In this document: in pieces, positions 12,478-61,035 of the stretch
Position numbering within the stretch: position 1 is the stretch's first letter
How the letters are laid out: each line of letters starts with the position of its first letter
NCBI GenBank assembly: GCA_025357875.1
Contig: JANYLK010000126.1
Location: 29,315 to 93,314 of the forward strand
Reading direction: 5' to 3'
Source of the DNA: Granulicella sp.
GTDB taxonomy: Bacteria; Acidobacteriota; Terriglobia; Terriglobales; Acidobacteriaceae
Length of the DNA stretch: 64,000 bases
Notes under the pieces: model-generated
What the model saw: the letters and a program-made list of their open reading frames with translations, nothing else
What the model was told of the DNA's origin: nothing
The model's database searches: none
Program-made: the position numbers and the translations under genes

Positions 12478-12522
12478 GACCGGCAAGTGACATCATCGTC
12501 ACCTTGCCGGTCGTTCTCTTGT
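12478..12522. terminator. Bidirectional hairpin terminator between convergent genes
   Basis: GACCGGCAAGTGAC-atcatc-GTCACCTTGCCGGTC (one-base bulge) followed by gttctcttg, between 11910..12443(+) and pckG(-). Confidence 0.7.
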
Positions 12523-12535
12523 TGGCGAGTTCGAC

Positions 12536-14353: not shown

Positions 14354-14402
14354 GTCGTCTGGTCCCTCCTCAATTGTTTGTTCGATGTATCTCCGCAAGG
14401 GA

Positions 14403-14448
14403 TTTCTCAAAGATACGTAACTTTTTTGGGACAAACTTTCTCAAAGAT
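14403..14448. repeat. 12-bp direct repeat TTTCTCAAAGAT x2 upstream of pckG
   Basis: tttctcaaagat at 14403-14414 and 14437-14448, start-to-start 34 bp. Confidence 0.8.
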
Positions 14449-14491
14449 CGCTCGGGATATTTGGCGAAGCTTGAAATCAAAATGAGTTACT

Positions 14492-31547: not shown

Positions 31548-32729
31548 TCACTTAACATCCTCGTCGAGCCGGGCCGATGGCCAACCATCCTCCCATCCCA
31601 CCGTCGAAATGTGCAGCGCCGGCCGGCCGTTCTCTGCGCTGTAAGCATGAAACACAAGTATGTCTTTATCAGCAGTATGCAGCAAAGACCCTCCGCCGGG
31701 CCCAAGCCACTTCCCATTCGCGCTCAGCAATGGGGATCCGCCACCCTCCAGCATCGGCTTGCCATCGCGATCCGCATAGGGCCCAGTCACGTTTTTTGAG
31801 CGACCAACCGTCGTCCGGTAGGTGCTCTTCAGCCCGCGGCAACACAGGTCCCACGACACGAACAGGTAGTAGAAATCCCCGTGGCGAAGGATGAACGGCG
31901 CCTCAATTGCCTCAGTGCCAGGCGGCAGATCGGGATTGCGCGGAGTCACCGAAGCCGTCTTCGCTCGCGCTGCCAGCGAATATTGTCGGGTGTCCTTCGC
32001 CGACAGCAGACCGGTCTTACGGTCGAGGTGCCGCATCTTGATTCCCGTCCAGAAGCTGCCAAAGGCAAGCCATGCTTCACCTTTCTCATCGAGAATCAAG
32101 TTCGGATCGATCGCATTGAAATCCTCTTGTTCGGTGGAACGAAGCACGAGTCCGCGGTCCACCCATTTCGATCTCTCACTCGTCGAGTCAAGGGTCTCGT
32201 TAGTGGCCAGCGCAATCCCCGAGGTGTTCTTCCCGAAGACCGAAAATGAGTAATACAAGTGGTACAGCCCATCAAAGTAGGAGATGTCGGGAGCCCAGAG
32301 GTCCTTTGTCTGCGGACTTATGTCGTGAATCCAGGTTGGAACCGTGTCAAACACATGTCCGCATCGAGTCCACTGATGCAGATCAGGGGAGCATCTGATC
32401 GGAAACTGTCCGATCGGCGCTGGCCGAGCTACGCCTGAATCAGTCGCTGATCCCGGGGGGGCACTGACGCCGGGTTGGCCGGATGACGCAGCGTTTCCCG
32501 GTGGGGCCGACGCTCCCAACGGTCTAGGCGGATAAGCCGCTCCTGTAGCGAAGACGTAGTACGTGCCGTGATCGAAGCCAATAGATGGATCGTGTGTTCC
32601 GGCAATATCGCCCGACAACTCGAGCGCCTGCGGTGTCTCCGCAGCCTTCTGACCAACAGCGCCAGTGAACGCGAAGATTCCCAGGATGACTACGGCTGCT
32701 GAGCTGCAGTGTTGGTGTGAATTTTTCAT
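31548..32729 (-). CDS. GH43-like arabinanase with Pro/Gly/Ala-rich internal insert
   Basis: THDPSIGFDHGTYYVFATG, LWAPDISYFDGLYHLYYSFSVFG, NAIDPNLIL, AIEAPFILRHGDFYYLFVSWDLCCRG; insert PPRPLGASAPPGNAASSGQPGVSAPPGSATDSGVARPAP. Confidence 0.9.
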   Translation of the reverse strand: MKNSHQHCSSAAVVILGIFAFTGAVGQKAAETPQALELSGDIAGTHDPSIGFDHGTYYVFATGAAYPPRPLGASAPPGNAASSGQPGVSAPPGSATDSGVARPAPIGQFPIRCSPDLHQWTRCGHVFDTVPTWIHDISPQTKDLWAPDISYFDGLYHLYYSFSVFGKNTSGIALATNETLDSTSERSKWVDRGLVLRSTEQEDFNAIDPNLILDEKGEAWLAFGSFWTGIKMRHLDRKTGLLSAKDTRQYSLAARAKTASVTPRNPDLPPGTEAIEAPFILRHGDFYYLFVSWDLCCRGLKSTYRTTVGRSKNVTGPYADRDGKPMLEGGGSPLLSANGKWLGPGGGSLLHTADKDILVFHAYSAENGRPALHISTVGWEDGWPSARLDEDVK

Positions 32730-32805
32730 CGTGTCTCCCGGGATAGCGATTGTCATCCCTGTTGCTTCGTCCGCGCTCACGCCGCTGATCGGCCAGTCAG
32801 ACCCG

Positions 32806-33300
32806 CTAATTGCCACCATCCGCATCGGTAGGAATCTGCTCCTCGCGGGGTAATTGCCGATGGTTGTCTATCTTGCTCGCTCGCTTGTCAGCCTGCATCT
32901 TTTCCGCCGCATCCCGCAACATGCGGAATTGTGCCAGCGCAGCGTTCGCCTCGCCCATACGGTGCATCCGGCGATATACACGGGCAGCTGATAGAAGGCT
33001 AGCGTGTTCAGCGTCGTGTCGCCTCTGGCGATACTCGGACGTTGCAGGTTAGCGATTCTGGCTGCATCTTGCGCAGGATCCACCTGCGCTCGCCCCAGAT
33101 AATAGTATGTACTCTCAAAAGCCTAGCTTGAGTTGCATCGCTTGCTCCAGCAACGACACCGCTTGCTGCCATCGCCCCAAACACAGACTTCTGCTAATCC
33201 AGATCATTTGGCGGGAGTTCCGCGTCTCCTCGCCGACCAGTATAGTGCAACGTTTCATGCCCATCCGCGATCGAAAGGCTGGCAAACGGTGAAAGCCTGC
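32806..33300 (-). pseudogene. TPR-repeat protein remnant
   Basis: SLCLGRWQQAVSLLEQAMQLKLGF* then ESTYYYLGRAQVDPAQDAARIAN then (other frame) ARVYRRMHRMGEANAALAQFRMLRDAAEKMQADKRA. Confidence 0.7.
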
Positions 33301-33392: not shown

Positions 33393-36266
33393 TCAGAACT
33401 CGTAGTCGAGTGAGAACTGGATACGACGGGCCGCGGAGGTGCCAATTGGACGATTGAACGTTTGCTGCGCCACGGCGTCTGAGCCGTAGGCCGTGCTCAT
33501 CAGCGAGACATTGCGATGATTCAACAAATTGAATGCCTCGGCAACGAGGTCGAGATGGCCATGGCCGAGCGCGACCATTTTGATAACGCGCAAGTCCAAA
33601 TCGACGCTGAGTGGTGTCGAAAGAGAATTCCGCGCATACCCGATTGGGCGAGCTGCGAAGGGGTAAATATGTTCGCGATTGCTGTCAAGCCCAATAATCG
33701 GATGTTCACGAAAACCGCTTGCGACGTTAAGGATGGGCGCAAACTCAAGTCCGGTAAGTAGACGAATTAACTTGCCGGGGTTGGCGTTGGCGGCTGCATC
33801 CTGAGGGTCGTTTAAGTCCGGGCCAATCAGCCAAAGTCCACTCAGGGTGAGGCGATGTGGCTGATCCTGCAGAGATGGTGCTCGTTCTACTAGGAGATCA
33901 TACGGGTTCTGTGGCTGCTCGCTGTCAAAGGATGCGTCGTCCAGAGTCTTTGAGAAGGTGTAGCCAGCGAGGAGTTGAAAATCGTTCGTGAATTGACGGT
34001 TGAGCGTAACCGTTGCTCCGTCGTAATTTGATCCCGCCGAACTGGCAAACTGGTTGATCGCATCATAGGCAGGGTTGAGGCGCAGTGGCGAGAAGACCAG
34101 GGTTCCGAGCTGTTGCGGTTTCGGAACACTGACCCCAAGGCTCGCTGCATTTTGCAAAGTCAACCGAGCGGGTTGGGCGAGGTTCGTGTTCGTCGTGCGT
34201 CCAAGGTGGACTCCGTGAACGTACTGGTACTCGGCCTTGAGGGTGGTCCTAAGAGGCAGAGCTAGTTCAGCGCTAAACGAGGCGACTTCGCTATAAGGAT
34301 TTTGGAGGGCTTGCTGCACGGTCCAGATACTCGGAGCCACGGATGTGAGCGACTGCCGCGGCCTGGCCCCGGTGCGATAGAGAGTGGTCGCCGCTGTGTC
34401 TTCCAGTATTTGGCTAAAGCCACGACTGCCATCCAGTTGCAGAAGTCGATCGACGGTCGACAGCAGATAGCGGTCATAGAAGATCCCGAATCCAGACCGG
34501 AGAACGAGGGACTTGCCAGGCATCCACGCGACACCAACCCGAGGGCTGAAGTTCAGGGCATGCTGAGGAAGATTCCCGGGGAGGTGATTGTCCTCGTACC
34601 GGATACCGAGGTCAATCGCCAGGCTGCGGGCGGTGGTCCAATGATCTTGCACGTACGCCTTAGACCGATATCCTGTGAAGTTTGAATTGGGAGCGCTGTA
34701 GAAGGATTGAATGAAAAAATCCGGCGCCGCGGCGGTGAATGCGCTGAGAGTCGAGAAAACGAAGAACCCGCGACTTCCATCCAGCACCTGGGCACGCAGA
34801 GACACGCGGTCAATCCCTGAACCAGCTTGAATGAGATGATGCCCTCTTTGAAGCATCGCGGCTTCCTCAAATTCAAGATGCGTCTCGAATCGCCGGCTGT
34901 TGCCCTGATACGGAGTCCCAAATAGCGCAACTCCCGGGATGAGCACCCCAGGGAACACTGCCGTCCCTGTGCGCTCGACTGCTTTTCGCTGCGAAATCTC
35001 AAAGCTGAACTTGTTGAGAAACTCGCTCGAGAGGTTTGAGGTCAGAGTTCCGTTGATACTGTTGTCCGCGGTAAACGACGAGCCACGCGCCGAGCGGTCA
35101 GAGAGTTCGTCAGTGTTATATGCGTCTGCCACATTGCGGGAGTTGGTGAAGGCGTACCGCACCATGGCGGATTGGTGAGCCGAAAAGATACTGTCCAGCC
35201 TCCCGGAGACCTCGGCCTCTTGATCTGTTGTGGGAAAGAAGCCTGTCTGCAGCGTAAGTCCCTGGACTGGCCCTGGCCGCTGAAGTGCAATGTTCAACTG
35301 GCTGATGGTCGCCTGATTGAGATCGTTCGCATCTTCGCCGCGAGCCAGTTCCTGTTCGGCAGCTGCGTAGTAGAACGTCTTGTTTCGCTGAATCGCTCCA
35401 CCCAGCGCCACTCCAGCTCGAAAACGATTTTCGTCAGGCTTGTACGGGTAAATCCCGAGTGGCGGGGTGCTGTTCAGTGCGCCGTTCTGCTCGAAGATGA
35501 AGGCGTCTCCATGCCTTTGGTTCATGCCTTCGCGGGTCTGCACGTCGATGGAGCCGCCCGCGGCGCCTCCGGACTCGGCTGAAAATCCGTGATTCACAAT
35601 CTGAAAATCGCTGATTGCTTCCGGGGAAAGCTGAGTGCGGCTACTCCCCGTGAACTCGTCGTCGTCGGAGACACCATCGATATGAACGGAATTACTGGAT
35701 GGACGCAGGCCACCGAATCCAAAGCCGCCGTTACTTTGAGAAGTAGTCTCCTGCGAAAACACCGGATTAGCGGGTGTGGCCTGTGGCGACAGCAGGACGA
35801 AGGTCAGGTAATTGCGATTCGAGATCGGAAGTTCTTCGACGCGATCACGATCGATATTGACGACAGACGAGGTTTGGGTAGTGTCAAAAGAGGACTGCCC
35901 TGCACTGACGTTTACCGTTTGACTGGTTCCCGCGATCGCAAGAGTAAATGTCAGTTGACTGTTTCGCCCCACAGCCACCGTAACAGCGGTATGGGTGGCC
36001 ATCGCAAAGCCCGGCGACGAAGCACGAACGGTAAACATCCCGCTTGGTATATCGAGGAGCGAAAATATTCCTTCGGGACTTGCAATCTTCACTCGCTCAA
36101 AGCCATCTTCACCCGAAACCGTAATGGCGGCTCCGGAAAGCGGGCGGCCATCTGTCATAACGACAGAACCAGAAATCATGCCGCTCTGACCCAGTTGCGC
36201 GTACAAAGGAATGACAGCGGTGAAGAAAGAGCCGACGCACAGCAATACGAACTCGATACGAAACAT
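33393..36266 (-). CDS. Oar-like TonB-dependent receptor
   Basis: ISGSVVMTDGRPLSGAAITVSG..; RVEELPISNRNYLTFVLLSPQATP, VHIDGVSDDDEFTG plug; C-terminal barrel ending RRIQFSLDYEF. Confidence 0.92.
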   Translation of the reverse strand: MFRIEFVLLCVGSFFTAVIPLYAQLGQSGMISGSVVMTDGRPLSGAAITVSGEDGFERVKIASPEGIFSLLDIPSGMFTVRASSPGFAMATHTAVTVAVGRNSQLTFTLAIAGTSQTVNVSAGQSSFDTTQTSSVVNIDRDRVEELPISNRNYLTFVLLSPQATPANPVFSQETTSQSNGGFGFGGLRPSSNSVHIDGVSDDDEFTGSSRTQLSPEAISDFQIVNHGFSAESGGAAGGSIDVQTREGMNQRHGDAFIFEQNGALNSTPPLGIYPYKPDENRFRAGVALGGAIQRNKTFYYAAAEQELARGEDANDLNQATISQLNIALQRPGPVQGLTLQTGFFPTTDQEAEVSGRLDSIFSAHQSAMVRYAFTNSRNVADAYNTDELSDRSARGSSFTADNSINGTLTSNLSSEFLNKFSFEISQRKAVERTGTAVFPGVLIPGVALFGTPYQGNSRRFETHLEFEEAAMLQRGHHLIQAGSGIDRVSLRAQVLDGSRGFFVFSTLSAFTAAAPDFFIQSFYSAPNSNFTGYRSKAYVQDHWTTARSLAIDLGIRYEDNHLPGNLPQHALNFSPRVGVAWMPGKSLVLRSGFGIFYDRYLLSTVDRLLQLDGSRGFSQILEDTAATTLYRTGARPRQSLTSVAPSIWTVQQALQNPYSEVASFSAELALPLRTTLKAEYQYVHGVHLGRTTNTNLAQPARLTLQNAASLGVSVPKPQQLGTLVFSPLRLNPAYDAINQFASSAGSNYDGATVTLNRQFTNDFQLLAGYTFSKTLDDASFDSEQPQNPYDLLVERAPSLQDQPHRLTLSGLWLIGPDLNDPQDAAANANPGKLIRLLTGLEFAPILNVASGFREHPIIGLDSNREHIYPFAARPIGYARNSLSTPLSVDLDLRVIKMVALGHGHLDLVAEAFNLLNHRNVSLMSTAYGSDAVAQQTFNRPIGTSAARRIQFSLDYEF

Positions 36267-36636
36267 GGAGGAGAATCTCCGGGAGGCAAAAGGAAGCGTG
36301 GTCCATGGTTGCTGGGCAGTGGAAGATGGTGGCAGCTCGAATCGCACAGTCCGCTCGTTGAGGAGTATCCTGCCGGTTGGTGTGCGGCGGTACTGTGTGT
36401 TCTGGTACTCGATGAGTTTACTTTGGAGCGGCAGGTGTGATTCGGATGTTGCCCATCTTCATATCGCCCGGCATGCCTTTCATCTTCGTCATCCGAACCG
36501 CAAGGTTGGCAAGCATGTCTACGCAACGCACACCCACCACCACCCCGCTTTTACGGAACTACGACGCCAAGTTCGCACTGCATAGTGTCACAAAATCGAT
36601 TTGCTTCGCATGTCAGGACCTTAGTCCGGCGGCCGG

Positions 36637-39600
36637 CTACGGTGCCGGAGGCGGGGCGACGCCAACGATCCTGACCCGTGAACCGAACCGCTTGAAATCG
36701 CGGAACTCTATTTCGTTCAGCAGAGCCTCGTGCTTGCCCTGCCGGATGCTGACCGCCGCGTGGATCGGCATGAGATAGTCGTGCCCGTTGACGGCGATGT
36801 AGTCGTAGTCGACCGCAAGCGAGGAAGCATGGATCGAGAAGTTCCGAGGGATTTCGTCGGCCTCGAGGGTGATTCTGCGGACCCCGAAAGTGGCCGAATC
36901 GATGTAGACATTGCCGTGGAAAGCCACGTTTAGCTGGCTATTGTTACTGCCGGTCAAACCGTAGTTAGAGTTCTCCTGCCGAACCCTGTAACTGAAGACC
37001 TGCGCCTTTCCTGAGCCGAGAATGTCCGTCTCCTTCCACTGAAACTCCGCCTTTGCGTCAGGTTGGAATACGGCGCTGAGGACGCCGCCGAACTGGCCAT
37101 GCGAGCTCATGCCCTTGAGATCGTCCGGCGCAATGCTGCTGCGTTCGCCGTTAGCCTGCAGCATGGTTCGGGACTCGATGCGATCCTGAAACTTGAGTAG
37201 CTGCGCCACCTGGTCCTTATGCTTCCACTCGCCGCTGCCCGAGGAATTGGTCGAACGAGTCGTGACTTCGACACAGTAAAAGTTTGGCAGTGACTCAGCA
37301 TAGTGAAGCGCCCTAACTCTTGCGCCGTCGATGATCGACGTGATTTCGCCGGGCGGCGGAGCGGGAACAGGGTCCACGGGAGAGGTGATGACAAGCTTGC
37401 TCGGCGACAACGCAGCGATGCCGGGGAGATTGGCATCGTCCGCAGAATCGTCAGGGGCGCTCCCGGGAACCGTGGGTTTCGCACCGTCGGCGCTGGCCAA
37501 CTCGGTACCGTGAATGATGAAGGTGAGAGTACGAAGTGTAGACTTGGTCCCCTGTGTCAGGACAGCTGCCACCTCATATTTTCCCGGCGAGAGCGAACGG
37601 GCCTGCATGGTCGCGAGGTAGGGTACGGCGGTGGCGGCACCTGCGTCGGAACGGACGGGCAGGAGCATTCGACCAACGGACTTTCCATTCTTGTGCACCT
37701 GCATCTCCAGCTTGATAGCGTCGCCGCCGTCGCCGGGATGGATGATGAAGAAGAAGGAGATGTCTTTGGCATCGCGCGCGACTTCGCCCGAAAGATTGGG
37801 TACCACTTTGGCATTGCCATAACGCAAGGGCTCAAGGGGGTCGGCGTCGATGCGGAACGGGTCGGTACGCCGAACCAGGGCCATGTCGCTGAGACCGAGC
37901 CCGATGGGGTTGGCAGGGACTTCGAAGTTGATGCGCTGGGCGCCGGCCTTCTGGCTGTTGTGATCGAGGATTGCGGTCTCTAGAACATAGTGGCCGGGAG
38001 GAGCAACGAAGTGGCGTTGGAGAGTTACGACCTCAGCCTGGGTCGCTTGCAGGGACTCGATGGCGCCGCGGCGGGGAATGTCCTCGGAGAAGTGGTCGAT
38101 GACCGTGCCTGCCGTGTTTTTAATCTGCGCGACGATCGAGAGGTGAAGGGAGTAAAGCCTGGTGTTGGTGTCTTCCCGGACCTCGACTCCGGACAGCGGC
38201 GCTTCGATAACGAGGGTGTTGACATTCCCGTCGACGAGTTGGCCCATGCGGAGGACTCCAGCGCGGAACTGGAGGTCGTTGGGGAGCTGCTCGGCTTCAA
38301 GGAGCTTGAGCAGCGGAACTTCGAACGGCTTGACGGTGGAAACCGAGCCAGGCGCGAGCGCAAAGTAGCCGGCACGGTAGCGAAGGACGATATTCTTACG
38401 GAGCGAGGCGACATGCACAGGGCGGAAGCTGCCATCGTAGTCCGCGATGGCAGGAACAAAAGTTGCCTCGTAGTATGTGGTCATATCGTCGCCAAGGCGT
38501 TTGAGGGGCTTCTTTAGATTGTCCCCGCCGACGATGTAGGCTCCTCCGGTATTTGAAGCCAGAGTGCCGAGCGGGCTGCTGGTTCCGGAGAGGCCCTCGG
38601 ACTCGATACGCCCGGCCTGGTCGATGGCCGCATTAAATGTGCCTTGACTGGTTGGCTCAGTAGATCCCCGGCCGCCCGCCGCCCTGGCAGCCGCCGTAAG
38701 AGAGCCAACGGAGGGGGCGATCGCAACGGACGCCAACAGCTTGTTGCTGGAGCGCTCGTCCAGGGCGCTGAGGTCGACAATGTAGAAGGTCACTCCGGAG
38801 CGATTTGCCTCGCCAACAACCGAGCTGACCATGTCGACTGCGTTGGAATCCATCTGAAAGCCTTGAGTGAAGTAGATGACGACCTTGCGGCCAGCGATCT
38901 CGCGCTGGGTCCGGGCCAGAGCCAGCAGACCGGCGAGCGTTGGTTGGCTGTTCTGGTCCTGGATGACACGCTGCGATTCCATGAGGCCGGCGAGCAGCAC
39001 TTTTGCCAGAGCGCGGTCGGTGGCGGGAACGGTGTTACCTGAGGCGTCGGCACCGGTCTGTGCGACTGCCTGTAGATCCTTCTCAGGGCCAGCGGAGTTC
39101 CCGGGATCGCCCGGCTTATCCTGTACGGTAGCCATAACCACCGCTTTGTCGATTTCGGCGCGGTCGGAGGTGAATGTGTGCAACAAGCGGAGGCGGCTAC
39201 CGACGTTCAGGACTGCGAATGACGAGCCTTCGGGGATTGCCTTGATGATCCTGGGTGCGATGTCACGGGCGTTCTTGTCGCCGGCCGAGTCGAGCCTGCC
39301 GAAGACCAGGGTCACCTTGCGCACGTTCGTTGGATCATCTTTGATGAGATGGAGGTTGGTCAGCTTGACGGTAGTTCCACCGTCGGTGACGGCGATCTGC
39401 GACGGCTGGAGATCCAGAATGGGGCGACCTTTCTCGTCGTGAACGAGGAGATCGAGAGACACTTCTTCGGCGTTGACGGCAATCGCAGCAGCGACAGGCC
39501 CCGGAGGAACTGGCGCCTGGCCGTGCGCATTGCAGTCCACAAGAAACATGGCGAGTACTGCAGTTGAAAGCCGTAGCAGTATCTCGCGAGTGGGTCGCGG

Positions 39601-39684
39601 CAGTCTGCGATTGGAAGTGAGAAGCACTGTTCTACCCGTGGGCGTAGTGTGATTTCGAAATGAAATGGCAGGTGCGTGCAACAA
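36637..39684 (-). CDS. VWFA-related acidobacterial-domain secreted protein
   Basis: AEEVSLDLLVHDEKGRPILDLQPSQIAVTDGGTTVKLTN..VTLVFGRLDSAGD..KVVIYFTQGFQMDSNAVDMVSSVVGEANRSGVTFYIVDLSALD; matches the TIGR03436-type pattern from memory. Confidence 0.85.
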   Translation of the reverse strand: MLHAPAISFRNHTTPTGRTVLLTSNRRLPRPTREILLRLSTAVLAMFLVDCNAHGQAPVPPGPVAAAIAVNAEEVSLDLLVHDEKGRPILDLQPSQIAVTDGGTTVKLTNLHLIKDDPTNVRKVTLVFGRLDSAGDKNARDIAPRIIKAIPEGSSFAVLNVGSRLRLLHTFTSDRAEIDKAVVMATVQDKPGDPGNSAGPEKDLQAVAQTGADASGNTVPATDRALAKVLLAGLMESQRVIQDQNSQPTLAGLLALARTQREIAGRKVVIYFTQGFQMDSNAVDMVSSVVGEANRSGVTFYIVDLSALDERSSNKLLASVAIAPSVGSLTAAARAAGGRGSTEPTSQGTFNAAIDQAGRIESEGLSGTSSPLGTLASNTGGAYIVGGDNLKKPLKRLGDDMTTYYEATFVPAIADYDGSFRPVHVASLRKNIVLRYRAGYFALAPGSVSTVKPFEVPLLKLLEAEQLPNDLQFRAGVLRMGQLVDGNVNTLVIEAPLSGVEVREDTNTRLYSLHLSIVAQIKNTAGTVIDHFSEDIPRRGAIESLQATQAEVVTLQRHFVAPPGHYVLETAILDHNSQKAGAQRINFEVPANPIGLGLSDMALVRRTDPFRIDADPLEPLRYGNAKVVPNLSGEVARDAKDISFFFIIHPGDGGDAIKLEMQVHKNGKSVGRMLLPVRSDAGAATAVPYLATMQARSLSPGKYEVAAVLTQGTKSTLRTLTFIIHGTELASADGAKPTVPGSAPDDSADDANLPGIAALSPSKLVITSPVDPVPAPPPGEITSIIDGARVRALHYAESLPNFYCVEVTTRSTNSSGSGEWKHKDQVAQLLKFQDRIESRTMLQANGERSSIAPDDLKGMSSHGQFGGVLSAVFQPDAKAEFQWKETDILGSGKAQVFSYRVRQENSNYGLTGSNNSQLNVAFHGNVYIDSATFGVRRITLEADEIPRNFSIHASSLAVDYDYIAVNGHDYLMPIHAAVSIRQGKHEALLNEIEFRDFKRFGSRVRIVGVAPPPAP

Positions 39685-39957: not shown

Positions 39958-42900
39958 TCATTGACGTCTCCTGTGATACCGATTGGGCGCACCGGGTGTG
40001 GGAATGTTGTCCGCGATCTGTGCTCCGCTGGCATGCGCGCGGGTGAGTGCAGTGGTGAGGGTGATGCCCGTGCCGAAGACTGGTGCGCCGGCGGCGTGTG
40101 CATACTTGAGCGGTTCGGCGATGGTGATAACGGGAACGCCTCTTCTGCCGCCGGAGGCAACAACCGCTGTCTCAGAGTTCGCACCGCTGTCGATGGTGAT
40201 GGTCTGGCCGGGTCGGAAGCCAAACGCGTTGGTGACTGGGATCGTGGCCGCACCCACGCCGGTGGCGGTGTCCACGGTCGTGGCGCCCGGCGTGCCAATC
40301 GTCGCGACCACGGTGGTCTCCTGGTTCGCTCCGGTATCGATTGTAATGGTCTGGCCAGTGTCAAAGCCCTCCACGCTGGCGACTTTGATATTGGTCGCGC
40401 CGGCGATCGACGAGGCCGCCAAGGCTGCAGCGGCCTGGGTCACGAAATCCGTGCAGTTGCTGTCGGTGTCGCTGCCGTCCGGAGAGCGACCCGCGCTCGT
40501 ACCCGGGCCGGGCGCAGCCACATGGCAGCCACTCTGCCCTGATCCGGCGGTTGCCTGGTAGCCCTCGGCAACCCATGGGTCGACCAGAAGGCCGTAGTTG
40601 AGGCTGTCGACAACCAGTCCACCAGCGTCACGCAGCACCATGCTGCCGGCGCTCGGGGAGAGGGCGGGACCTCCGAACCACTGGTTGGGCTGCACCGTTG
40701 CCTGGTAGCCAGCGATCTTAGCTTGCCCGTCGTGCACAACCGAGTTGATGCCGTGTTCGTGGACCAAAGCACTGTCGAGCGCAACGCCGGTGCCCAGAGG
40801 CTGAACGGGTTCGTTGCTTGCGTGGGCAAAAGCCGTCGCCGGCTGGAAGCTGATCCCGGTTCCGCGATCGCTGAAGGGCATGTTTGACGCATGACTGAAC
40901 ATTAGCGGTGCGGCAACGTCGAGGCCCGAACCTGGGGCCATTACCGCCTCGCCGTTGGGATGCGCCTGGGCAAGGGCCGGCGTAAAGTCAACGCCGGTGC
41001 CGGTCGGACCTGGGGTGCCAACTGTGGTGATGGTAACCGTCTCGCCGGGGGTGCCGACGGTCATCTTGTCGCCCACTGTAAAGCCGTTTGCGTTGCGGAC
41101 TTTGATATTGGTCGCGCCAGCGCCCGCATTCGCCAGCAGAGCGGCGCGGCTTGCCTGCGTGCCAACGTGCGTGACCGTGACCGTCTCGATCCCATGGCCG
41201 ACACTGTCGATGTCCAGCCTGATCGTGTCACCGGTCGAGATATTGGCGACAGACGTCACCTTGATGTTCGTCGAGCCAGCAGCTGCATCGGCGCCCAGGT
41301 AGGCCTGGGTACCCTGCTTGCCAACTGCAGTAACCGTTGCCACCTCATACCGCTCCGTCGTTCCTGCGACACTTGGGTAGGTTGCACCGTGACCGATGGC
41401 CATCTTCTCGCCGACCGCGAAGCCGGACACGTTGGTGACGGGCACGTTGGTTGAGCCAGCGGGGATCGTGATCACAGGACCGTCAGGGAGGGGTTGCCAC
41501 AGCGTCGTGTTGTTGCCCACCGCCGTCCCAATACTTCCGATCTTGCGATTCTCCAGGTTGGAGCCAGTGCCGATGCCGATTGCATCGCCAACTGTCATGC
41601 CGGTGGTGCTCCTAACGTAAATAGTGGAATCGCCTCCGCGCGCGGGAACAGCCAACCCGGAGCTAGACAGACCGAGCACGTAGAAACCGCCCGCGGCGAG
41701 CTTGGTTCCCGCCGGAACTTTGATCGCTGAAAAGATGGCTTGCTGGGTTGGGTGTTCGGTCAAAGTCCAGTTGGAGACATCAACGCTACTGGTTCCGGCG
41801 TTGTAGAGCTCGATGAATGAGTTCGTTGAGTTGGCGGGAGCGAGAGTGCTAACGCGAAACTCGTTGATCTTAATCGGGCTGACGTTCCGGACCTTCTCCG
41901 CGATTGTTGCCTCGAGATTCTTCCCGCTGTTCACAGGGTTCGTCCACGAGGCTTTGGCAATTAGGTCGCCGTTAAATGTGACCGGCCCCGAAGTCACCTT
42001 GAAAATCGCGTTCACGCTCGTACCGGATGCGACCGGGTCGGCGAACGTCTTCGCGGTTTCGGTTGTGCCTGAAGCCAGTGCACTCCATCCCTTAGGTGCG
42101 AAGATGCTCAGCTTGACGCCAGAGGCTGGGGCGCCCGTGGTGTTTGTAAACGTCACCGTGGTGTCCTGCGATGATCGCGGCGAGAACGTCTGAAGTCCTG
42201 AAGGAGTGGCAGTAGCCGACACCGGCCCGAGGCTCAACTGCTGCACGTCATATCTGGCGGCAGCGACGTTGGCCTGTACAAGTTGGTCCGTGGCGTTGGT
42301 CGGGAAGGTCTTTGCGGCCGTCATCGCGCCTTCATAGAAGGTGCCCTGCGAACTGTTGCTATTGTCCCCACCATTGCCCAGGAGAATAGCCCCCTGCTTG
42401 CGCATCGGGTCATAGGTGGAGTTGATGCGCGGTCCGTCGAACATGACTGATAGGCTGCCGTGCTGTGCGTCGCCCCCCATGGAGGTCCAGTGGTGTGGTT
42501 CGCCCTTGGCCATCGCGGTCACGAATCGCCATGTAATGCTTGGCAGGTTTGCACACGATTTGGATCCATCCGGGTTTACACAGCCGACCAGGTTATTTTC
42601 CTGGTCAGTCATAACCCATGGGCCCGGGGGCGAACCGTGATACCAGCCTGCGGAGTCACCGTAGTACGTTGTTTCCATGGTTCCGTTGCCGTCGTCGCGG
42701 CTGTCGGTTTCCGCGTTGCCATAGTCGAAGCAGCAGCCTGCGTTGTAATGCAAGCCGTTGATGACCCAATACTGCCCTTCAGCCTGGTCGTCGACCGCGG
42801 TACCCTTCACGTCGTTCTGGCGAAGCCCCATGCCAGGCTCGATGAAGACGCCATAAACTTTATGGCCCATAGCCGTAATTGGCGCCATGTCGGCAATAGG

Positions 42901-43335
42901 GAGATTGTTGAACCCCCCCATGGCTGGACCGCTGAATCCGCCGCGGGGTGCCTGGGTGAGGTCGTTATGCTTGCCGGACTGGTCATAGATGGTGGCGATC
43001 CAGCAGTAGGTGTTGGCGCAGAATGCATCCTGTTTGGCGGCGTCGGCGTATCCGCCCGCATCTGAGCCGGAAGGCGGGACGACACCGATGTCCAGGGTCG
43101 TGCGGTCGGACTGACGCAGGACCTGATAGAGAGGTCCGTTGTAGGAGCCGTACAGAGCGCGTGTGGTGCTGTGAGCGGCGACGCATGGGTTGCCGGCAGC
43201 GGCATAGATGTCACATGGTCCTTCCGGCCTGTGCGAATTGGGTTCGGCTCCGGCCTGTGCTGCCATTGCTAACGTGGTGCCACTTAGAGTAACCGCCAGT
43301 GCGACTGTTAGCGCGAGAGTGATTCTCATTTTCAT
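39958..43335 (-). CDS. GH54-type alpha-L-arabinofuranosidase with NEW3-like, split LTD and beta-repeat modules
   Basis: GPCDIYAAAGNPCVAAHSTTRALYGSYNGPLYQVLRQSDRTTLDIGV..CWIATIYDQSGKHNDLTQAP..YWVINGLHYNAGCCFDYGNAETD; then PKGW-type NEW3, IKINEFRVSTLAPANSTNSFIELYNAGTSSVDVSNW (LTD) and GATNIKV repeats. Confidence 0.88.
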   Translation of the reverse strand: MKMRITLALTVALAVTLSGTTLAMAAQAGAEPNSHRPEGPCDIYAAAGNPCVAAHSTTRALYGSYNGPLYQVLRQSDRTTLDIGVVPPSGSDAGGYADAAKQDAFCANTYCWIATIYDQSGKHNDLTQAPRGGFSGPAMGGFNNLPIADMAPITAMGHKVYGVFIEPGMGLRQNDVKGTAVDDQAEGQYWVINGLHYNAGCCFDYGNAETDSRDDGNGTMETTYYGDSAGWYHGSPPGPWVMTDQENNLVGCVNPDGSKSCANLPSITWRFVTAMAKGEPHHWTSMGGDAQHGSLSVMFDGPRINSTYDPMRKQGAILLGNGGDNSNSSQGTFYEGAMTAAKTFPTNATDQLVQANVAAARYDVQQLSLGPVSATATPSGLQTFSPRSSQDTTVTFTNTTGAPASGVKLSIFAPKGWSALASGTTETAKTFADPVASGTSVNAIFKVTSGPVTFNGDLIAKASWTNPVNSGKNLEATIAEKVRNVSPIKINEFRVSTLAPANSTNSFIELYNAGTSSVDVSNWTLTEHPTQQAIFSAIKVPAGTKLAAGGFYVLGLSSSGLAVPARGGDSTIYVRSTTGMTVGDAIGIGTGSNLENRKIGSIGTAVGNNTTLWQPLPDGPVITIPAGSTNVPVTNVSGFAVGEKMAIGHGATYPSVAGTTERYEVATVTAVGKQGTQAYLGADAAAGSTNIKVTSVANISTGDTIRLDIDSVGHGIETVTVTHVGTQASRAALLANAGAGATNIKVRNANGFTVGDKMTVGTPGETVTITTVGTPGPTGTGVDFTPALAQAHPNGEAVMAPGSGLDVAAPLMFSHASNMPFSDRGTGISFQPATAFAHASNEPVQPLGTGVALDSALVHEHGINSVVHDGQAKIAGYQATVQPNQWFGGPALSPSAGSMVLRDAGGLVVDSLNYGLLVDPWVAEGYQATAGSGQSGCHVAAPGPGTSAGRSPDGSDTDSNCTDFVTQAAAALAASSIAGATNIKVASVEGFDTGQTITIDTGANQETTVVATIGTPGATTVDTATGVGAATIPVTNAFGFRPGQTITIDSGANSETAVVASGGRRGVPVITIAEPLKYAHAAGAPVFGTGITLTTALTRAHASGAQIADNIPTPGAPNRYHRRRQ

Positions 43336-43768
43336 GTTTGTCCTGTTTGCTCTGCCGAGTTTGTTCGGCATCTGGAATTCTCACGGTTCCGGGGATACAA
43401 ATGCAAGCGAATCGAAGCGCATGGCAATGAATTGCTCATGGAATCACCGAGCGAAGTATTTCGAAAGATAGCCAAATTGACTTGTCCACGCTGCACAGCA
43501 GTCTCAACCCCGAAACGCGTGGAAGGAGATTGTGAGGGAATAGTACCTGGTGCTTCCGGATAATAAACAAAAATTGGGTTGGCAACGGCACTTCACTCAC
43601 GTACTATTCTGCGATCCCAATCGGTGACTGATTCGACGCGCTGAGCTTTTAGTTTCCGCTGTGTCTGCTAGGCGTATGACTCGGATTTGACACGCTTACA
43701 AATGCGCTAATGATGCGCAATTGAAGCGTGCATACTTCCGAAGACTATCCACATCCCGAGGCTCTGAT

Positions 43769-46700
43769 ATGAAACAAGCCTGCAAACTGACAATATCGAA
43801 TCCGCTTGCCGGCATGGTGCTTCGCCCGCGGCAGATAGCCGCCTTCGCATTGCTCTGCGTTCTCGCAATCGGCTTGAGCGCGAACGCGCAGCAGACGACC
43901 GCCACCATCGTCGGAAACATAACAGATACCACTGGCGCTGTGATTGTCGGTGCAGTTGTGAAGATCACAAACATCGGGACAAACACCATCCGTACGACGG
44001 TGACGGACGGGTCGGGAGTGTACACACTGCCCGGCATCCCTGTCGGCACTTACAACCTGACCATCGAAATGGCCAGCTTTCAGTCGGAAAGAGTAGACGC
44101 TATTATCCTGGAGGCCAGCCAGACTGCTCGCCATGACTTCAAGCTTTCCGCCGGCAAGGTGAGTGAGGTTATCGAAGTCCAGGGCTCCGAAGCTGCCGCA
44201 GTGCTCCAGACCGAGACGGGCGCCGTGGGTGAGGTCATTAACGCGAAGAAGATCGAAGATCTCCCTCTCAACGGGCGTAACTTTATTCAATTGGCTCAGT
44301 TGATTCCCGGGGTCAATACTGGAACCTCCGGGTCCATCACTGTACGACGAGCGCGTGGATCGGTGGGCTCCACGGATCCCAACGGCGGCTCAACGGCGAT
44401 TCAGGTGAATGGACAACGAGATACCCAGAACCGCTACTCGATTGATGGTATTGAGTCGATGGATTACGACGCATTTACTTACAGCTTCTCCACCTCCGTC
44501 GATGCAATCGCGGAATTCCGCGTCGACACAAGCAGCAGCGGCCCAGACGGCGGCGCGGCTGCAGGCGCGAATGTGAACCAGATCATCAAGTCAGGCAGCA
44601 ATAAATTGCACGGCACTTTATTTGAATTCAATCGCAACAATGTCTTCACGCAGACCTACGATGCGATCGCTAAGATCGACTCCAAACCTCCGCGGTTGAA
44701 TCGCAATCAATTTGGTGGCAACGTCGGCGGCCCGGTCGTCATTCCACACGTCTATAACGGCCATGACAAGACCTTTTTCTTCATTAATGCGGAAACCGGC
44801 TATGGACTGAATGGCGCAACTCCACAGCAAGCCACTGTGCCCGATGACAGCGTACGGAACGGCATCCTCGATTCAAGCATCTTCGTCGGAGTGCAGGCGG
44901 TCCCGGGAGGCTGTCCTTCTGTCTGTGATCCTTTCACGGGCACCGTCTATCAGGTCGGCGACAAAATCACACTCAATGCGAATTCGGCGCTCTTACTCAA
45001 GCCAACCGTAACCCCAGTAGCAACGATTGGGGGCACCGTCGGCCCCAGCTTGCTTACCAACTTTCTGACAACTCCGATCAAGACACTCAACTTTCAGCAC
45101 CAATACATCGGTCGTCTGGACCATACTCTTGGGGCGCGGGACAACATCAGCGGTCACTACGTTTACGATGACACCTTCAGCAACGGAGTCTCATTTTATG
45201 GTCACGACAATGACGATAATGACGCCGTGACTAAGCATCTCGCAATGTCAGAGACCCATATCCTCTCTCCTGCAATCGTCAACGAATTCCGATACGGCCG
45301 GCAGGATTTCAAGGAGTTTGAGACATTCGGGACCACCGGCAATCCGGCCTATAACATTGCGAACGGCTTGCTCGGAATTCCATTCTCGTCCTCAGACCCC
45401 CACTTCTACGGGGGAATAAACACGACTATCAGCGGCCCCGGCCAGACCTATCGCCTGTTCGGCAACCTGCGCAACATCGGTCCGCGTAACCGCGCCAATG
45501 GCATTAACCAGTTTGTCGATAATTTGTCTTGGCAACGCGGCAGGCACGCGATGAAATTCGGCGTGGATATCGGCCGGCGCACGGACTATTTCAGCCAGGC
45601 GCGCGACCCCCATGGATCGTTCTCGTTCGATGGCCGTTATACCGGTTCGGCACTGCTCGACTTTTTGCTGGGCTATGTCAGTGGTGACAGCATCAACCCG
45701 ACGGTCACCAGGACGAGTATTTCAAGTTTGATCCAGGCGTATTCCTTCCAGGACAACTGGACGGTGCGCAATGGCCTTACTCTGAATCTTGGCATACGCT
45801 GGGACCACTATGCACCCTATACCCAGGATGACGACAAGTACGCCGACATCTATATCGGGCCAGACGGCCTAAATCCCGGGAACGTCGCCACTCCTGCCAA
45901 CTCGCCTTATGGAAGAGGCTTGATCCAACCGGTTTACCACGATTTCCAGCCCCGCCTCGGATTTGCCTGGCAGGTCGAGGAAAAGTTCGTTGTGCGCGGC
46001 GGGTATGGTCTCTACTTCACACCGGAGATCGATAACGCCTGGTTTGCCATGGCCGAAGGTGCGCAGGCACAAAGTGGAGCCGCCCTTACCGGAAATCCCG
46101 GTCGAACCGGAACGACTACCGCCCTCAAGTTACCAAACTTGACCCTGACCAACCCGTTCCCGGGAGTTGTAACCGGAGGACCAAGCACCTATCCCTTTGC
46201 GATCGCAATGGACCAGCATCTGCAGGACCAGATGACGTCGCAATTCAACCTCGCTATTCAGCGGCAACTTCCCGGGAAATTTAGCGTGGAGGTCGGATAC
46301 GTGGGCGCGCTCGGCCGTCACAATTTCGTTACGGAGAATGTGAACATCCCCATGCCCATCAACCCCGCCAGCACAACGTTGTCGGTCAATGCGAGACGTC
46401 CGAACCAGAACTTCCTGCGCAACGTTCAAGCAGACTACTCAATTGGCTCATCGACCTATCATGCGCTGCAAACCAAGGTCGAGCGGCGTGTCGGCCAGGG
46501 TTTAAATATCCTCGCTTCCTATACATGGTCGAAATCGATCTCCGGGCCGGCAGACATCGGCGGAGCCGTCGGCGGTGGATTCTATGGCGCGGCTCCTCTC
46601 AACGTGTACGATCCTCGCACGGATCGGTCGCTTTCGCTGTTCGACATTCCTCAGCGGTTTGTTGGGACGGTGCTGTATGACGTCCCTTTTTTCCGCCACT

Positions 46701-47191
46701 CAACTGGATTCAAGAAAATGCTGCTTGACGGATTCCAGGTCTCTACCATTCTGACCGCCGCGTCCGGCATACCCGCCGCGGTCACTGACACCGCGCAAAC
46801 GACAGCTACAGGAATCGCGTCAAGACCCGACCGTGTGCCCGGAAAGGTGGTCAGCCTTGGTCGATCTGGCAGAACTCCCTTGGCGCAATTCAACACTGCG
46901 GCCTTCACGGTTGCACAACCTGGAGAGTTTGGCACGTCGCCACGCACGGGCGCCGTACGGCTCCCAGGTGTGCTGAACGATGACTTCTCTGCGACCAAAG
47001 GATTCAAGTTTGGAGAGGTGCGAAACCTTCAGTTACGCGCCGACTTTTTCAACCTGGCGAAACACTATAACCCCGATCCATCCACCATCGGACTTGCACG
47101 CAACGCGGCAACTTTTGGAAAGATCAACAACGGTCTTTCTGGAGGCTTCGCAACCCGCGTCATTCAAATCGGCGCAAAGCTGTATTTCTAG
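43769..47191 (+). CDS. Oar-like TonB-dependent receptor
   Basis: TIVGNITDTTGAVIVGAVVKITN..; KIEDLPLNGRNFIQLAQLIPGV, YSIDGIESMDYDAF; barrel C-terminus RVIQIGAKLYF. Confidence 0.93.
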   Translation: MKQACKLTISNPLAGMVLRPRQIAAFALLCVLAIGLSANAQQTTATIVGNITDTTGAVIVGAVVKITNIGTNTIRTTVTDGSGVYTLPGIPVGTYNLTIEMASFQSERVDAIILEASQTARHDFKLSAGKVSEVIEVQGSEAAAVLQTETGAVGEVINAKKIEDLPLNGRNFIQLAQLIPGVNTGTSGSITVRRARGSVGSTDPNGGSTAIQVNGQRDTQNRYSIDGIESMDYDAFTYSFSTSVDAIAEFRVDTSSSGPDGGAAAGANVNQIIKSGSNKLHGTLFEFNRNNVFTQTYDAIAKIDSKPPRLNRNQFGGNVGGPVVIPHVYNGHDKTFFFINAETGYGLNGATPQQATVPDDSVRNGILDSSIFVGVQAVPGGCPSVCDPFTGTVYQVGDKITLNANSALLLKPTVTPVATIGGTVGPSLLTNFLTTPIKTLNFQHQYIGRLDHTLGARDNISGHYVYDDTFSNGVSFYGHDNDDNDAVTKHLAMSETHILSPAIVNEFRYGRQDFKEFETFGTTGNPAYNIANGLLGIPFSSSDPHFYGGINTTISGPGQTYRLFGNLRNIGPRNRANGINQFVDNLSWQRGRHAMKFGVDIGRRTDYFSQARDPHGSFSFDGRYTGSALLDFLLGYVSGDSINPTVTRTSISSLIQAYSFQDNWTVRNGLTLNLGIRWDHYAPYTQDDDKYADIYIGPDGLNPGNVATPANSPYGRGLIQPVYHDFQPRLGFAWQVEEKFVVRGGYGLYFTPEIDNAWFAMAEGAQAQSGAALTGNPGRTGTTTALKLPNLTLTNPFPGVVTGGPSTYPFAIAMDQHLQDQMTSQFNLAIQRQLPGKFSVEVGYVGALGRHNFVTENVNIPMPINPASTTLSVNARRPNQNFLRNVQADYSIGSSTYHALQTKVERRVGQGLNILASYTWSKSISGPADIGGAVGGGFYGAAPLNVYDPRTDRSLSLFDIPQRFVGTVLYDVPFFRHSTGFKKMLLDGFQVSTILTAASGIPAAVTDTAQTTATGIASRPDRVPGKVVSLGRSGRTPLAQFNTAAFTVAQPGEFGTSPRTGAVRLPGVLNDDFSATKGFKFGEVRNLQLRADFFNLAKHYNPDPSTIGLARNAATFGKINNGLSGGFATRVIQIGAKLYF

Positions 47192-49549: not shown

Positions 49550-51643
49550 ATGAAACGCAGACTTTCCCGCCGCAAATTCATTGCTTCCGCCGCACTCTCA
49601 ATGGTGCCGTCCGCAATCGCATACGCCCACTTAAAGAGTTACCCCCTCCTTTCCTTTTTAGCGGACGAACTCAAGACAGCTAAAGGGCTCAAGGCAGACT
49701 GGAAAGATGCCGGGGTGATCGACTTGTCTAATTCTCCGCACGCCAAGCTGAGAACTGTTCCGGTGCGCGCGGTCGTTATCCAGGATGGTTTCTGGTCCAG
49801 GAGACAAAAGACTAATTTGGTCGCAAGCATTCCCAGCATGCATGACGAATTGCTTGAGCATGGTCGCATGGATAATTTTCTTCGACTTGAAGGCAAGTCT
49901 ACTGCCCCGCAGAAGGGACCTGTGTTTTCCGACTCGGACATATACAAATGGACTGAGGCGGTCGGGTTTCAGTTACAGATCGCTGACAACCCTGAGCTAA
50001 GGAAGACGACCGAAGCGATGATCCGTGATGTCGTCGCTATCCAGGAACCGAGTGGATACCTGAATACTTATTACAACGATGATAGAAAGCTGTTGCGTAT
50101 GCAGTACGACATCCAGACCACCGGCCATGAGCTTTATTGCATCGGCCATATGCTTCAGGGGGCGATTTCATATTATCGGGCAACGGGAGATCTGACCCTG
50201 CTCAATGCAGGCAGACGGTTTGTAGATGATTTTCTAATTCCTAACTACGGGCCGGGTGCAAACCAGAAGGCTATTGTGTCCGGTCATCCAGAGATCGAGA
50301 TGGCATTGATAGAACTCTCGCGTACTACTGGTGAGCGCAAATACGTGGACCTGGCCGGGTACATCCTTCACGGGGATCAACGGGTTCCGCTAAAACCTCA
50401 GCAGATTGTCTATATGTACTGCGGATCACCATTCACCTCGCGGACCAAACTTGAAGGCCACGCGGTGCGGGCGATGTATGCGTGTTGCGGGGCCACGGAC
50501 TATTACCTGGAGACCGGTGATCAGGCCTATTGGAAGACGCTGAATGTACTTTGGAACGATCTGACAGCGCATCAGCTCTACATAAATGGCGGTGTAGGAG
50601 CGCGGGCAGTTGGCGAGTCGTTCGGGGATCAATATGAGCTCCCAAATGCGCAGGCCTATGGCGAGAGCTGCGCAGCAATCGGAAACATGATGTGGAACTG
50701 GCGGATGCTGGCAGCCTCCGGCGAAGCGAAGTTCGCCGACGTTATTGAGCGAGCGCTTTATAACGGGATCAACTCGGGTATGTCGCTCGACGGAAAAACC
50801 TATTGCTATCGCAATCCTCTAGCGTTCGACCCAGCGGGCGAATCGAGAGACAGACATCTGGTTGACGGCAAGATCCGCAATGCGTGGTACGACACGACCT
50901 GCTGTCCAGCAAACCTTGAGCGTACGTTTGCATCGCTTTCAGGGTATTTCTACAGCACAAATACGGACGGCATTTACGTTCATCTGTATGACAACTCGGA
51001 GATGAACTGGCACCTGCATGATGGCACAGCCTTGAAGGTAGAGCAGAAGACGAACTATCCATGGAGCGGCGATGTAAAGCTAACGCTTAGACCTGCGGTT
51101 CCGAGCGAGTTTGTCATGTACGTCCGAATCCCGGGCTGGTCGACAAAAAACAGCGTCAAGGTAAACGGCGAAGAAGTAGCAGGTGCAAAGCCGGGCGAAT
51201 ACCTTGCGATTCGGCGACGTTGGGCGGAACATGACACGATCGATTTGAACTTCGATATGACCACGCACCTGCTGAAAGCAAACCCTGCTGTGTCAGAGGA
51301 TCACGGGCGAGTCGCATTTCAGCGCGGACCGCTCGTGTTCTGTATGGAGCATCTGGACCAGCAAGAGCACAGTGTGGGAATGAACCTTGCTGGCTACACG
51401 GTGCTGCCGGATGAATCAACGACCGAACATTACGAGGCCAATTTGTTGGATGGAGTGATGGTGCTGACTCATCCGGCAACGATCAGTAAGTCAGCGACGG
51501 ACATGGCTCTGTACTTTCCCGCCTCAACTCCGAAGATGCCGGAAAGTCCAACAACAATAAAGCTGATTCCTTACTATGCATGGGCAAATAGGGAGTCCGC
51601 ATCGATGCAGGTTTGGATCCCGTACAAGGATGCCCAAAGTTGA
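49550..51643 (+). CDS. GH127/DUF1680 beta-L-arabinofuranosidase-type protein
   Basis: LSRRKFIASAA leader; VQDGFW-like VVIQDGFWSRR; GHELYCIGHMLQGAISYYRATGD; SFGDQYELPNAQAYGESCAAIG; DTTCCPANLERTFASL. Confidence 0.92.
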   Translation: MKRRLSRRKFIASAALSMVPSAIAYAHLKSYPLLSFLADELKTAKGLKADWKDAGVIDLSNSPHAKLRTVPVRAVVIQDGFWSRRQKTNLVASIPSMHDELLEHGRMDNFLRLEGKSTAPQKGPVFSDSDIYKWTEAVGFQLQIADNPELRKTTEAMIRDVVAIQEPSGYLNTYYNDDRKLLRMQYDIQTTGHELYCIGHMLQGAISYYRATGDLTLLNAGRRFVDDFLIPNYGPGANQKAIVSGHPEIEMALIELSRTTGERKYVDLAGYILHGDQRVPLKPQQIVYMYCGSPFTSRTKLEGHAVRAMYACCGATDYYLETGDQAYWKTLNVLWNDLTAHQLYINGGVGARAVGESFGDQYELPNAQAYGESCAAIGNMMWNWRMLAASGEAKFADVIERALYNGINSGMSLDGKTYCYRNPLAFDPAGESRDRHLVDGKIRNAWYDTTCCPANLERTFASLSGYFYSTNTDGIYVHLYDNSEMNWHLHDGTALKVEQKTNYPWSGDVKLTLRPAVPSEFVMYVRIPGWSTKNSVKVNGEEVAGAKPGEYLAIRRRWAEHDTIDLNFDMTTHLLKANPAVSEDHGRVAFQRGPLVFCMEHLDQQEHSVGMNLAGYTVLPDESTTEHYEANLLDGVMVLTHPATISKSATDMALYFPASTPKMPESPTTIKLIPYYAWANRESASMQVWIPYKDAQS

Positions 51644-51715: not shown

Positions 51716-53551
51716 TTAGGTTTGCTGATAAAGACGGTAGGATTCGTCCTTGATTTCGGGGTAAGGGAGCATGCGGACTTTACCTTTGTTGGTTGCGACT
51801 TCCCATGCCGGGGAGTTGCCAATGCGCTGGGCGGCGAGCAGTTGATTCTGACTCATCGTGGAGTCGGAGGGCTCAATCGCGAAGAGGGCGACCGGCCCAT
51901 AGAGAAGAGCGACCAGCCGCTGATGATGGTCGTCGATGGGCGTGAGACGCAGGGGCATGTCGAGTGAGAATTCGACGCGATCGCCGTCCTTCCAGGTCCG
52001 GTCGATGTTGGCCCAGGTGCCGGGCGTGAGAGTCACCTCAATGGGATTGCCGTTGATTGTGACTTTGGACTTGCTGCCCGCCCATGCGGGGACGCGGAGG
52101 GCGATGGTGAAATGCTCTGGATGTGAGAGCGCAAGATGCATGCTGGTGTCGCCGTTGGCAGGATACTGAGTATCCTGAGTGAGCGTGACACGCGCGCTTC
52201 CCTGCTTCCAAGTCACGCGTGAGGGAACGTATAGGTTGACGTTAATCCCCTGTGCGCTGCGGAGGTACGAGCTGATACCGTAGTCGGCCGTGAGCTGTGG
52301 GAAGGTGCCGGCGCAACAAGGCCACTTCTGCTCGTAATCCACCTTTCTGGCATCACGATTGTAGTCGGCGTAGTAGAAGCTGACGCCGTCCGGGCGAATC
52401 GGCCTGGCACCGAGGATGGTGTTGTAGAGAATGGTTTCCATGCTATCGCCGTAGCGGCTATCGCCGGTAACTCGCATCAGGTAGCGCGTGATCTTGAAAT
52501 GGCCGTAAGCACCACAGGGGGTTTCGAAGCTGCTGTGTGTCTTGATAAGGCTATCGGCAAGTTCGTCACTCTCTGGCTTGACGAAGCCTTCGTTAGGGCC
52601 CCAGCCACCGGTGGCATAGCTCTGAGCTTGAACGAATGCGAAGCCATTACGGACTGCAGCAAGGTGCTTCTCACTGTGATCGGTGATGTAGGCCTGCATC
52701 GCGGAACAAAGGCCGTTTACGTGGCTGTAGGCGTGTTGTCCGGGAAGCATGTTCTTGTTCAACGCGAGAGGTCCGAAGTAAGTGTCATCCTGCAGGAAGC
52801 GTTGAGCAAGCTGGCGATAGCGTGCACCAGCACCGCGCTGATATGCGAGATACAGATTTTCAGGAAGGGTGTAGGTCTCGTCCCATGTCCAGGAAATGTT
52901 TTTGTGAGGTCGCGCAGCCATCTCTTCGCGGTTGAGGGCTTTGGCAGGAAGATAAGGCAGGACTGCATCCGTCGCGTGGTTGAGGACAGCGAGAGCTTGC
53001 GGATCACTGGCGAACTGGTGAGCGTCGATCAGACCGCAGTTGGTCTTGTCGAAAGTGTAGGCAGGAAGGCAGTAGTTTTTGTAAAACTTTTCGCTGATGG
53101 TTGGCGCGAAGCCGGCAACTAGCCTCTGGACCTTGGCCTGGGTGGCTTTATCTCCAGTAACGGCGTAGGCCCGTGACAGACCGGACACCCACTGTCCGAA
53201 GGTGTGGCCGGGCACATAGCCGGTCATGTTCTTGGGCGGGTCGAAGAGGTCGGAGGGAGAGTACCAGCCGCCAAGGTCATCACCGGGAGCGGGCATGCCC
53301 GAAAGCTGACGAAAGGGCTTGAGCATGCTGTCCTCGTTGAGTTGGAGAAACAGCTCGTGATTTTGCCGAAACTGCACAAGCATAGGGCCATCGAGGAGTT
53401 GCACATCCCGGTAGTCGAATTGGGTAAGGGGCGTGCGCGTCATGCTCATCGCAGCCGGCGAGTCCGACGCATTCGCATTTCGCAACACTGCAACACTTGC
53501 GGCCAGGGCTGCACTATTCTTCAAAAACTCTCGACGGCTTGGTTTAGGCAT
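51716..53551 (-). CDS. Second DUF1680/GH127-like (beta-L-arabinofuranosidase domain) protein
   Basis: SRREFLKNSAALAAS Tat-like leader; VQLLDGPMLVQFRQNHELFLQL; HTFGQWVSGLSRAYAVTGD; CGAYGHFKITRYLMRVTGDSRYGDSMETILYNTILG; WPCCAGTFPQL. Confidence 0.88.
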   Translation of the reverse strand: MPKPSRREFLKNSAALAASVAVLRNANASDSPAAMSMTRTPLTQFDYRDVQLLDGPMLVQFRQNHELFLQLNEDSMLKPFRQLSGMPAPGDDLGGWYSPSDLFDPPKNMTGYVPGHTFGQWVSGLSRAYAVTGDKATQAKVQRLVAGFAPTISEKFYKNYCLPAYTFDKTNCGLIDAHQFASDPQALAVLNHATDAVLPYLPAKALNREEMAARPHKNISWTWDETYTLPENLYLAYQRGAGARYRQLAQRFLQDDTYFGPLALNKNMLPGQHAYSHVNGLCSAMQAYITDHSEKHLAAVRNGFAFVQAQSYATGGWGPNEGFVKPESDELADSLIKTHSSFETPCGAYGHFKITRYLMRVTGDSRYGDSMETILYNTILGARPIRPDGVSFYYADYNRDARKVDYEQKWPCCAGTFPQLTADYGISSYLRSAQGINVNLYVPSRVTWKQGSARVTLTQDTQYPANGDTSMHLALSHPEHFTIALRVPAWAGSKSKVTINGNPIEVTLTPGTWANIDRTWKDGDRVEFSLDMPLRLTPIDDHHQRLVALLYGPVALFAIEPSDSTMSQNQLLAAQRIGNSPAWEVATNKGKVRMLPYPEIKDESYRLYQQT

Positions 53552-53694
53552 TTTGGAATCCTCGTTTTCATACTCGTAGCCAGCTATGTCAGCTCGACTC
53601 ATTCTCCTGGAGTGACGAGTTTGAGTTGACATGGAAATATCGAATTGTGGGCGCCATCCAGAGTTGGGAAAACGGGTTACGATCCGACGCGCCT

Positions 53695-58532: not shown

Positions 58533-58596
58533 CGTGATACCTCCGAAATTCAAGTGTTAGTGCTAGCTCAAAGCGCCTGCAATGTTCGCACTAAAT

Positions 58597-61015: not shown

Positions 61016-61035
61016 TGACCTTCGGAGAAATACTC

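Follow-up and report, generated by a model that had tools for sequence, protein, structure and literature searches.

The arabinofuranosidase gene and its neighbourhood

The gene under study occupies positions 39958..43371 on the reverse strand of the window, by which we mean the whole stretch of 64,000 nucleotides analysed here. The ORF and its Pfam matches define a protein of 1137 aa that combines GH54, NEW3 and lamin-tail (LTD) domains; the parts of this protein are given below by their window coordinates, all on the reverse strand. The 1125-aa protein described in the first-pass annotation lies in the identical frame and starts at Met13 (position 43335). From this methionine onwards runs a putative Sec signal peptide, MKMRITLALTVALAVTLSGTTLAMAA (43258..43335), which was judged by eye from the sequence, and the 1137-aa protein is probably secreted.

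The GH54 catalytic domain (residues 52-374; 42250..43218) matches Pfam family PF09206 over nearly its full length (profile 1-314 of 315, E 1.8e-124; 415 bits, cut-off 25). Its nearest solved structures are GH54 arabinofuranosidase B throughout, including AbfB of A. kawachii (1wd3, E 1e-103). In the alignment with this homologue, Glu258 (42598..42600) corresponds to Glu221 of AkAbfB at chain position 204, which we take to be the catalytic nucleophile, and Asp336 (42364..42366) corresponds to Asp297 at chain position 280, presumably the acid/base; both are invariant in 76 of 76 sequences. Likewise, Cys213-Cys214 (42730..42735), invariant in 74 of 74, aligns with the vicinal cysteine pair of AkAbfB, which we assume to form a vicinal disulfide. 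From what is known of the family, the putative reaction would be hydrolysis of non-reducing terminal alpha-L-arabinofuranosyl residues with retention of configuration.

Downstream of the catalytic domain, residues 402-472 (41956..42168) resemble NEW3, also known as NPCBM_assoc (PF10633, E 4.7e-5), at 23.9 bits, just below the Pfam cut-off of 24.4. A C-terminal CBM42 is typical of fungal GH54 enzymes and does not define the family; Pfam gave no AbfB/CBM42 match in the 1137-aa protein at E 1. Parsing the protein with domain HMMs, a check proposed in the first-pass annotation, thus yields GH54, NEW3 and the N-terminal part of an LTD (residues 499-571). The genome contains no paralogue of this gene.

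Around the GH54 gene, the window forms an arabinose-polysaccharide cluster that includes three GH43 genes (25591-26706, 31548-32825 and 60967-63585) and two GH127 genes (49550-51643 and 51716-53698). Four genes in these 64 kb (19692-23090, 33393-36347, 43721-47191 and 55242-58553) encode large proteins with CarboxypepD_reg and OMP_b-brl_4 domains, which are probably uptake partners of the enzymes. Such a neighbourhood is consistent with the import and degradation of a polymer rich in arabinose. A heparinase-like gene is also present. Directly downstream of the GH54 gene lies a gene for a 1015-aa protein (36637-39684) without a Pfam match at E 1e-5.

A lamin-tail domain with two repeat insertions

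The remainder of the protein comprises three LTD pieces separated by two repeat-containing inserts. The first LTD piece (residues 497-574; 41650..41883) is followed by insert 1 (residues 575-895; 40687..41649), the second LTD piece (residues 896-978; 40438..40686), insert 2 (residues 979-1120; 40012..40437) and a closing piece that contains TPGAPN (residues 1121-1137; 39961..40011). The usual uninterrupted layout is absent, and the two inserts of 321 and 142 residues together add 463 residues. Ordinary LTDs are uninterrupted and have ~110-145 residues.

In the intact protein, the Pfam match is confined to the N-terminal portion of the LTD. The first piece scores 39.8 bits against PF00932 (profile 8-70; cut-off 34.3), and the second stretch by itself is unrecognised by Pfam. 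Joining the pieces extends the match to profile positions 8-108 of 109 and raises the score to 45.8 bits. This gain is modest; the control in which unrelated sequence was placed at the junction reached 39.0 bits. In a profile comparison with hhalign, against a profile built from five uninterrupted LTDs of a single Verrucomicrobial genome, the joined family alignment matched from end to end, including the GRxPDG and TPGAxN motifs, with a score of 112.7 (E 2e-18). The first piece by itself scored 69.4, and the second piece with the tail scored 54.6. Controls in which the order was swapped (71.8) or the second piece was foreign (71.3) remained at E 1e-11, and the inserts alone scored 14.9 and 10.0 and did not match the uninterrupted LTDs.

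Insert 2 begins beyond the Pfam match to the LTD model and ends before the conserved end motif GRxPDG...TPGAxN is complete, a motif that is also present in uninterrupted LTDs. Three relatives (L034, L056 and L077) lack insert 2. In these sequences the DF motif runs directly into TPGAPN, and the LTD tail is contiguous. On the catalytic-domain tree the absence of insert 2 requires three changes, and in any single one of the three relatives it may be a draft-assembly error.

Pfam joining, hhalign joining and the relatives without insert 2 agree, and thus support a single LTD with repeat arrays nested at two places, as judged from sequence comparison. This is the arrangement proposed in the first-pass annotation, in which an LTD is interrupted twice by repeats and then closes with TPGAPN. 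An alternative explanation would be that the two LTD-like stretches are separate, with a C-terminal stretch unrelated to LTDs in a protein that is a linear string of domains. The failure of Pfam to recognise the second stretch would be consistent with such a layout. However, the joined sequence matches uninterrupted LTDs in the right order and up to both end motifs, while the swapped and foreign controls show no such gain, which makes separate stretches very improbable. For the whole C-terminal region, AlphaFold2 gave a model with pLDDT 85 and pTM 0.75 that is confident in both LTD halves.

Insert 1 contains four full units, u1 (residues 579-638; 41458..41637), u2 (639-698; 41278..41457), u3 (699-751; 41119..41277) and u4 (752-789; 41005..41118), followed by four half units with the pattern GTGxxLxxPLxxxHxxxxxV (790-884; 40720..41004). 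Insert 2 contains two full and two half units. The beta repeats are ~50-60 residues each. Their mutual similarity is well above chance, in line with the repeats noted in the first-pass annotation: in a test with 300 shuffles, 13 of the 15 unit pairs scored above every shuffle, and for the remaining two 3 of 300 shuffles scored as high; z values ranged from 3 to 16. The stretch from 751 to 809, which comprises u4 and the first half unit, is missing in 22 of 70 relatives.

Modelled alone with AlphaFold2 (pLDDT 90.6, pTM 0.80), insert 1 is predicted to fold independently, and the repeat unit is likely to be a small beta-barrel-like fold. A Foldseek comparison of insert 1 with the solved structures in the PDB yielded no match with E under 0.001. 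The best of the weak fold matches were phage tail or depolymerase proteins, including the K1 lyase (7w1c) and the P560 depolymerase (7vul). A weak likeness to the K1-lyase Rider domain PF24149 is also seen in the sequence of u3 (E 1.7e-4), although its 22.4 bits fall under the curated cut-off of 27. Eight predicted viral structures matched below 0.001 with poor superposition, and viral contigs yielded one 33-residue match to the repeats and no alignment of the whole tail. A phage origin of the repeats was rejected, as no sequence relative was present in 50,697 phage records and the phage fold matches are weak. Matches of the repeats to FliMN_C were at or below the cut-off and covered 27-41 residues, and were taken as chance.

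Distribution, selection and origin

Relatives were collected in one scan, from which the best 80 of 146 were kept. These best 80 are of the GH54-LTD protein type, and insert 1 is present in all that are complete enough to judge; a pattern search among their loci found no relative that lacks it. They come mainly from Acidobacteriota, and also from Planctomycetota, Verrucomicrobiota, Bacteroidota, Gemmatimonadota and two Massilia isolates. With ~80 loci among these best relatives, the architecture is not rare, contrary to its description as unusual in the first-pass annotation. Members of the family are frequent in Acidobacteria of soil and peat, organisms that degrade plant polymers.

The insert-1 profile occurs in 32 of 170 genomes of the order to which the window belongs, nearly always in ORFs of GH54-LTD size. 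In the samples of Verrucomicrobiota, Pseudomonadota and Planctomycetota, each match to this profile lies in an ORF of the GH54-LTD type, and in the former two phyla the ORFs that match the repeats are the same ORFs that carry the LTD-type GH54. Inspected Acidobacteriota sequences with more distant matches to insert 2 also start with GH54. The repeats thus appear tied to the GH54-LTD enzyme within the sampled genomes of Acidobacteriota, Verrucomicrobiota, Pseudomonadota and Planctomycetota.

Several loci deserve separate mention. A contig titled Rhodanobacteraceae (L018) seems to be identical with G1228:C166, which belongs to a genome placed in the acidobacterial genus of the window, and the coordinates match. 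This suggests that the title of the record is wrong; metagenome bins can carry misleading titles. On the Novosphingobium plasmid pP6W1 (L111, 5890-7923), a protein annotated as hypothetical (WP_052505932.1) represents the C-terminal part of the family without GH54, and its gene is located a short distance downstream of an ISKra4 transposase. We considered this protein as a free-standing LTD protein and rejected that reading; it is a fragment located near the transposase gene, and probably a truncated remnant. Another locus (L112) has a pair of neighbouring GH54 genes from different subfamilies (8019-11225 and 11661-14663). Both depart from the family frame at an identical point in insert 2, possibly through slippage or an assembly error in a G-rich stretch.

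Mean pairwise identity was 0.80 for GH54, 0.70 for the LTD pieces, 0.66 for insert 1, 0.59 for NEW3 and 0.56 for insert 2. Our results show that both inserts are under purifying selection: across seven pairs, dN/dS ranged from 0.10 to 0.24 in insert 1 and from 0.16 to 0.32 in insert 2, and hence stayed below 0.35 in both. Insert 1 also has invariant columns outside the repeat pattern (e.g., W, H, N and F). Insert 2, which was lost in three relatives, is non-essential. Relatives with and without insert 2 therefore offer a natural experiment.

In the catalytic-domain tree, a single bacterial clade (SH-aLRT 98) unites the LTD-type GH54s, and a long branch separates it from the fungal row, which is one sequence. 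This clade has two subfamilies, and the split LTD occurs in both. Some of the tree labels that denote absence of an LTD reflect a strict pattern or cut loci instead of true absence, and counts of these labels were therefore left aside. The window's copy is placed among its Acidobacteriaceae kin, and a phylogeny with this one fungal row gives no sign of the fungal acquisition hinted at in the first-pass annotation. Horizontal transfer from fungi to Acidobacteria might be suspected, because GH54 is best characterised in fungi and the match to AkAbfB is strong, but it is extremely unlikely given the well-supported bacterial clade, the nesting of the window's gene within Acidobacteriaceae and the grouping by Motta et al. 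(2021; PMC8155123), who also keep bacterial sequences apart from a group made up entirely of Ascomycetes. Within the LTD-type clade the phyla are intermixed, which is compatible with exchange among bacteria or with misbinned contigs.

Possible role and comparison with known systems

The enzyme would be a secreted GH54 exo-alpha-L-arabinofuranosidase that trims arabinose from plant polysaccharides. Behind its catalytic domain and NEW3, one Ig-like LTD would carry arrays of small beta-barrel-like repeats on two loops, one in the middle of the LTD core and one just ahead of the closing end motif. The LTD may serve as a fixed clamp, with the arrays projecting from it. In place of the fungal CBM42, LTD and arrays could tether the enzyme to its polymer substrate or to the cell surface, and determine how far it reaches. 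We consider it reasonably probable that the protein is a secreted arabinofuranosidase of an arabinose cluster whose LTD and arrays serve in this way, where binding and spacing are candidate roles that we infer. A more specific proposal, that the LTD-borne array is a new type of carbohydrate-binding module in which an Ig-like domain presents tandem beta barrels and replaces CBM42 in this bacterial branch of GH54, is rather unlikely. As a defined and foldable region, the tail is a candidate for a kind of polymer-binding module that has not been described.

Possibly, the arrays bind nothing and form a rigid spacer, with the LTD merely as its structural base. The repeats are regular and vary in copy number, as the deletions around u4 and the losses of insert 2 illustrate, and both inserts are less conserved than the catalytic domain. 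However, insert 1 was found in every complete relative examined, has invariant residues outside the repeats and is conserved about as well as the LTD, so that a pure spacer seems a doubtful, though serious, explanation. Another explanation might be that LTD and arrays anchor the protein to the cell surface or outer membrane and do not bind substrate. The gene adjoins genes for outer-membrane barrels, and a membrane-directing role has been proposed for bacterial LTDs (Mans et al., 2004, cited in PMC6085458). Yet, the sequence shows no lipobox, no PEP-CTERM-like end and no signal for covalent anchoring, and in a cell assay ExeM could largely do without its LTD (PMC6085458). We therefore regard an anchor as unlikely, and prefer the reading of an enzyme held on its substrate or surface by LTD and arrays.

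Among the closest known systems is group Bacterium I of Motta et al. (2021; PMC8155123), which comprises GH54 enzymes with LTD and NPCBM_assoc domains from Acidobacteria, Verrucomicrobia and Proteobacteria. The domain combination is that of the window protein and the taxa overlap, and the window protein most likely belongs to this group. A RICIN domain, also listed there for Bacterium I, was not found in the window protein. The suggestion in the first-pass annotation that the architecture is possibly undescribed stands in part: the combination of GH54, NPCBM_assoc and LTD was listed in 2021, whereas that paper gives domain names only, its section on these enzymes mentions neither nesting nor repeats, and we found no description of either in the open-licence literature. 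The protein represents a genuine and conserved variant within a known enzyme family; its tail is nested, and no published description of such a tail was found. Ordinary annotation hides such nested insertions, since Pfam recognises only half of the LTD and assigns no name to any of the inserted residues.

Compared to other LTDs of PF00932, such as that of the Shewanella nuclease ExeM (PMC6085458), the window protein shares the core and the generic end motif, and differs in its two insertions. Bacterial GH54 members that lack CBM42 are already known (PMC8155123). In comparison with AbfB of A. kawachii, the window protein has a homologous catalytic domain and retains the nucleophile, the acid/base and the vicinal cysteine pair. 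The two enzymes diverge at their C-terminal ends, where AkAbfB carries a CBM42 beta-trefoil and the window protein carries NEW3, a split LTD and repeat arrays.
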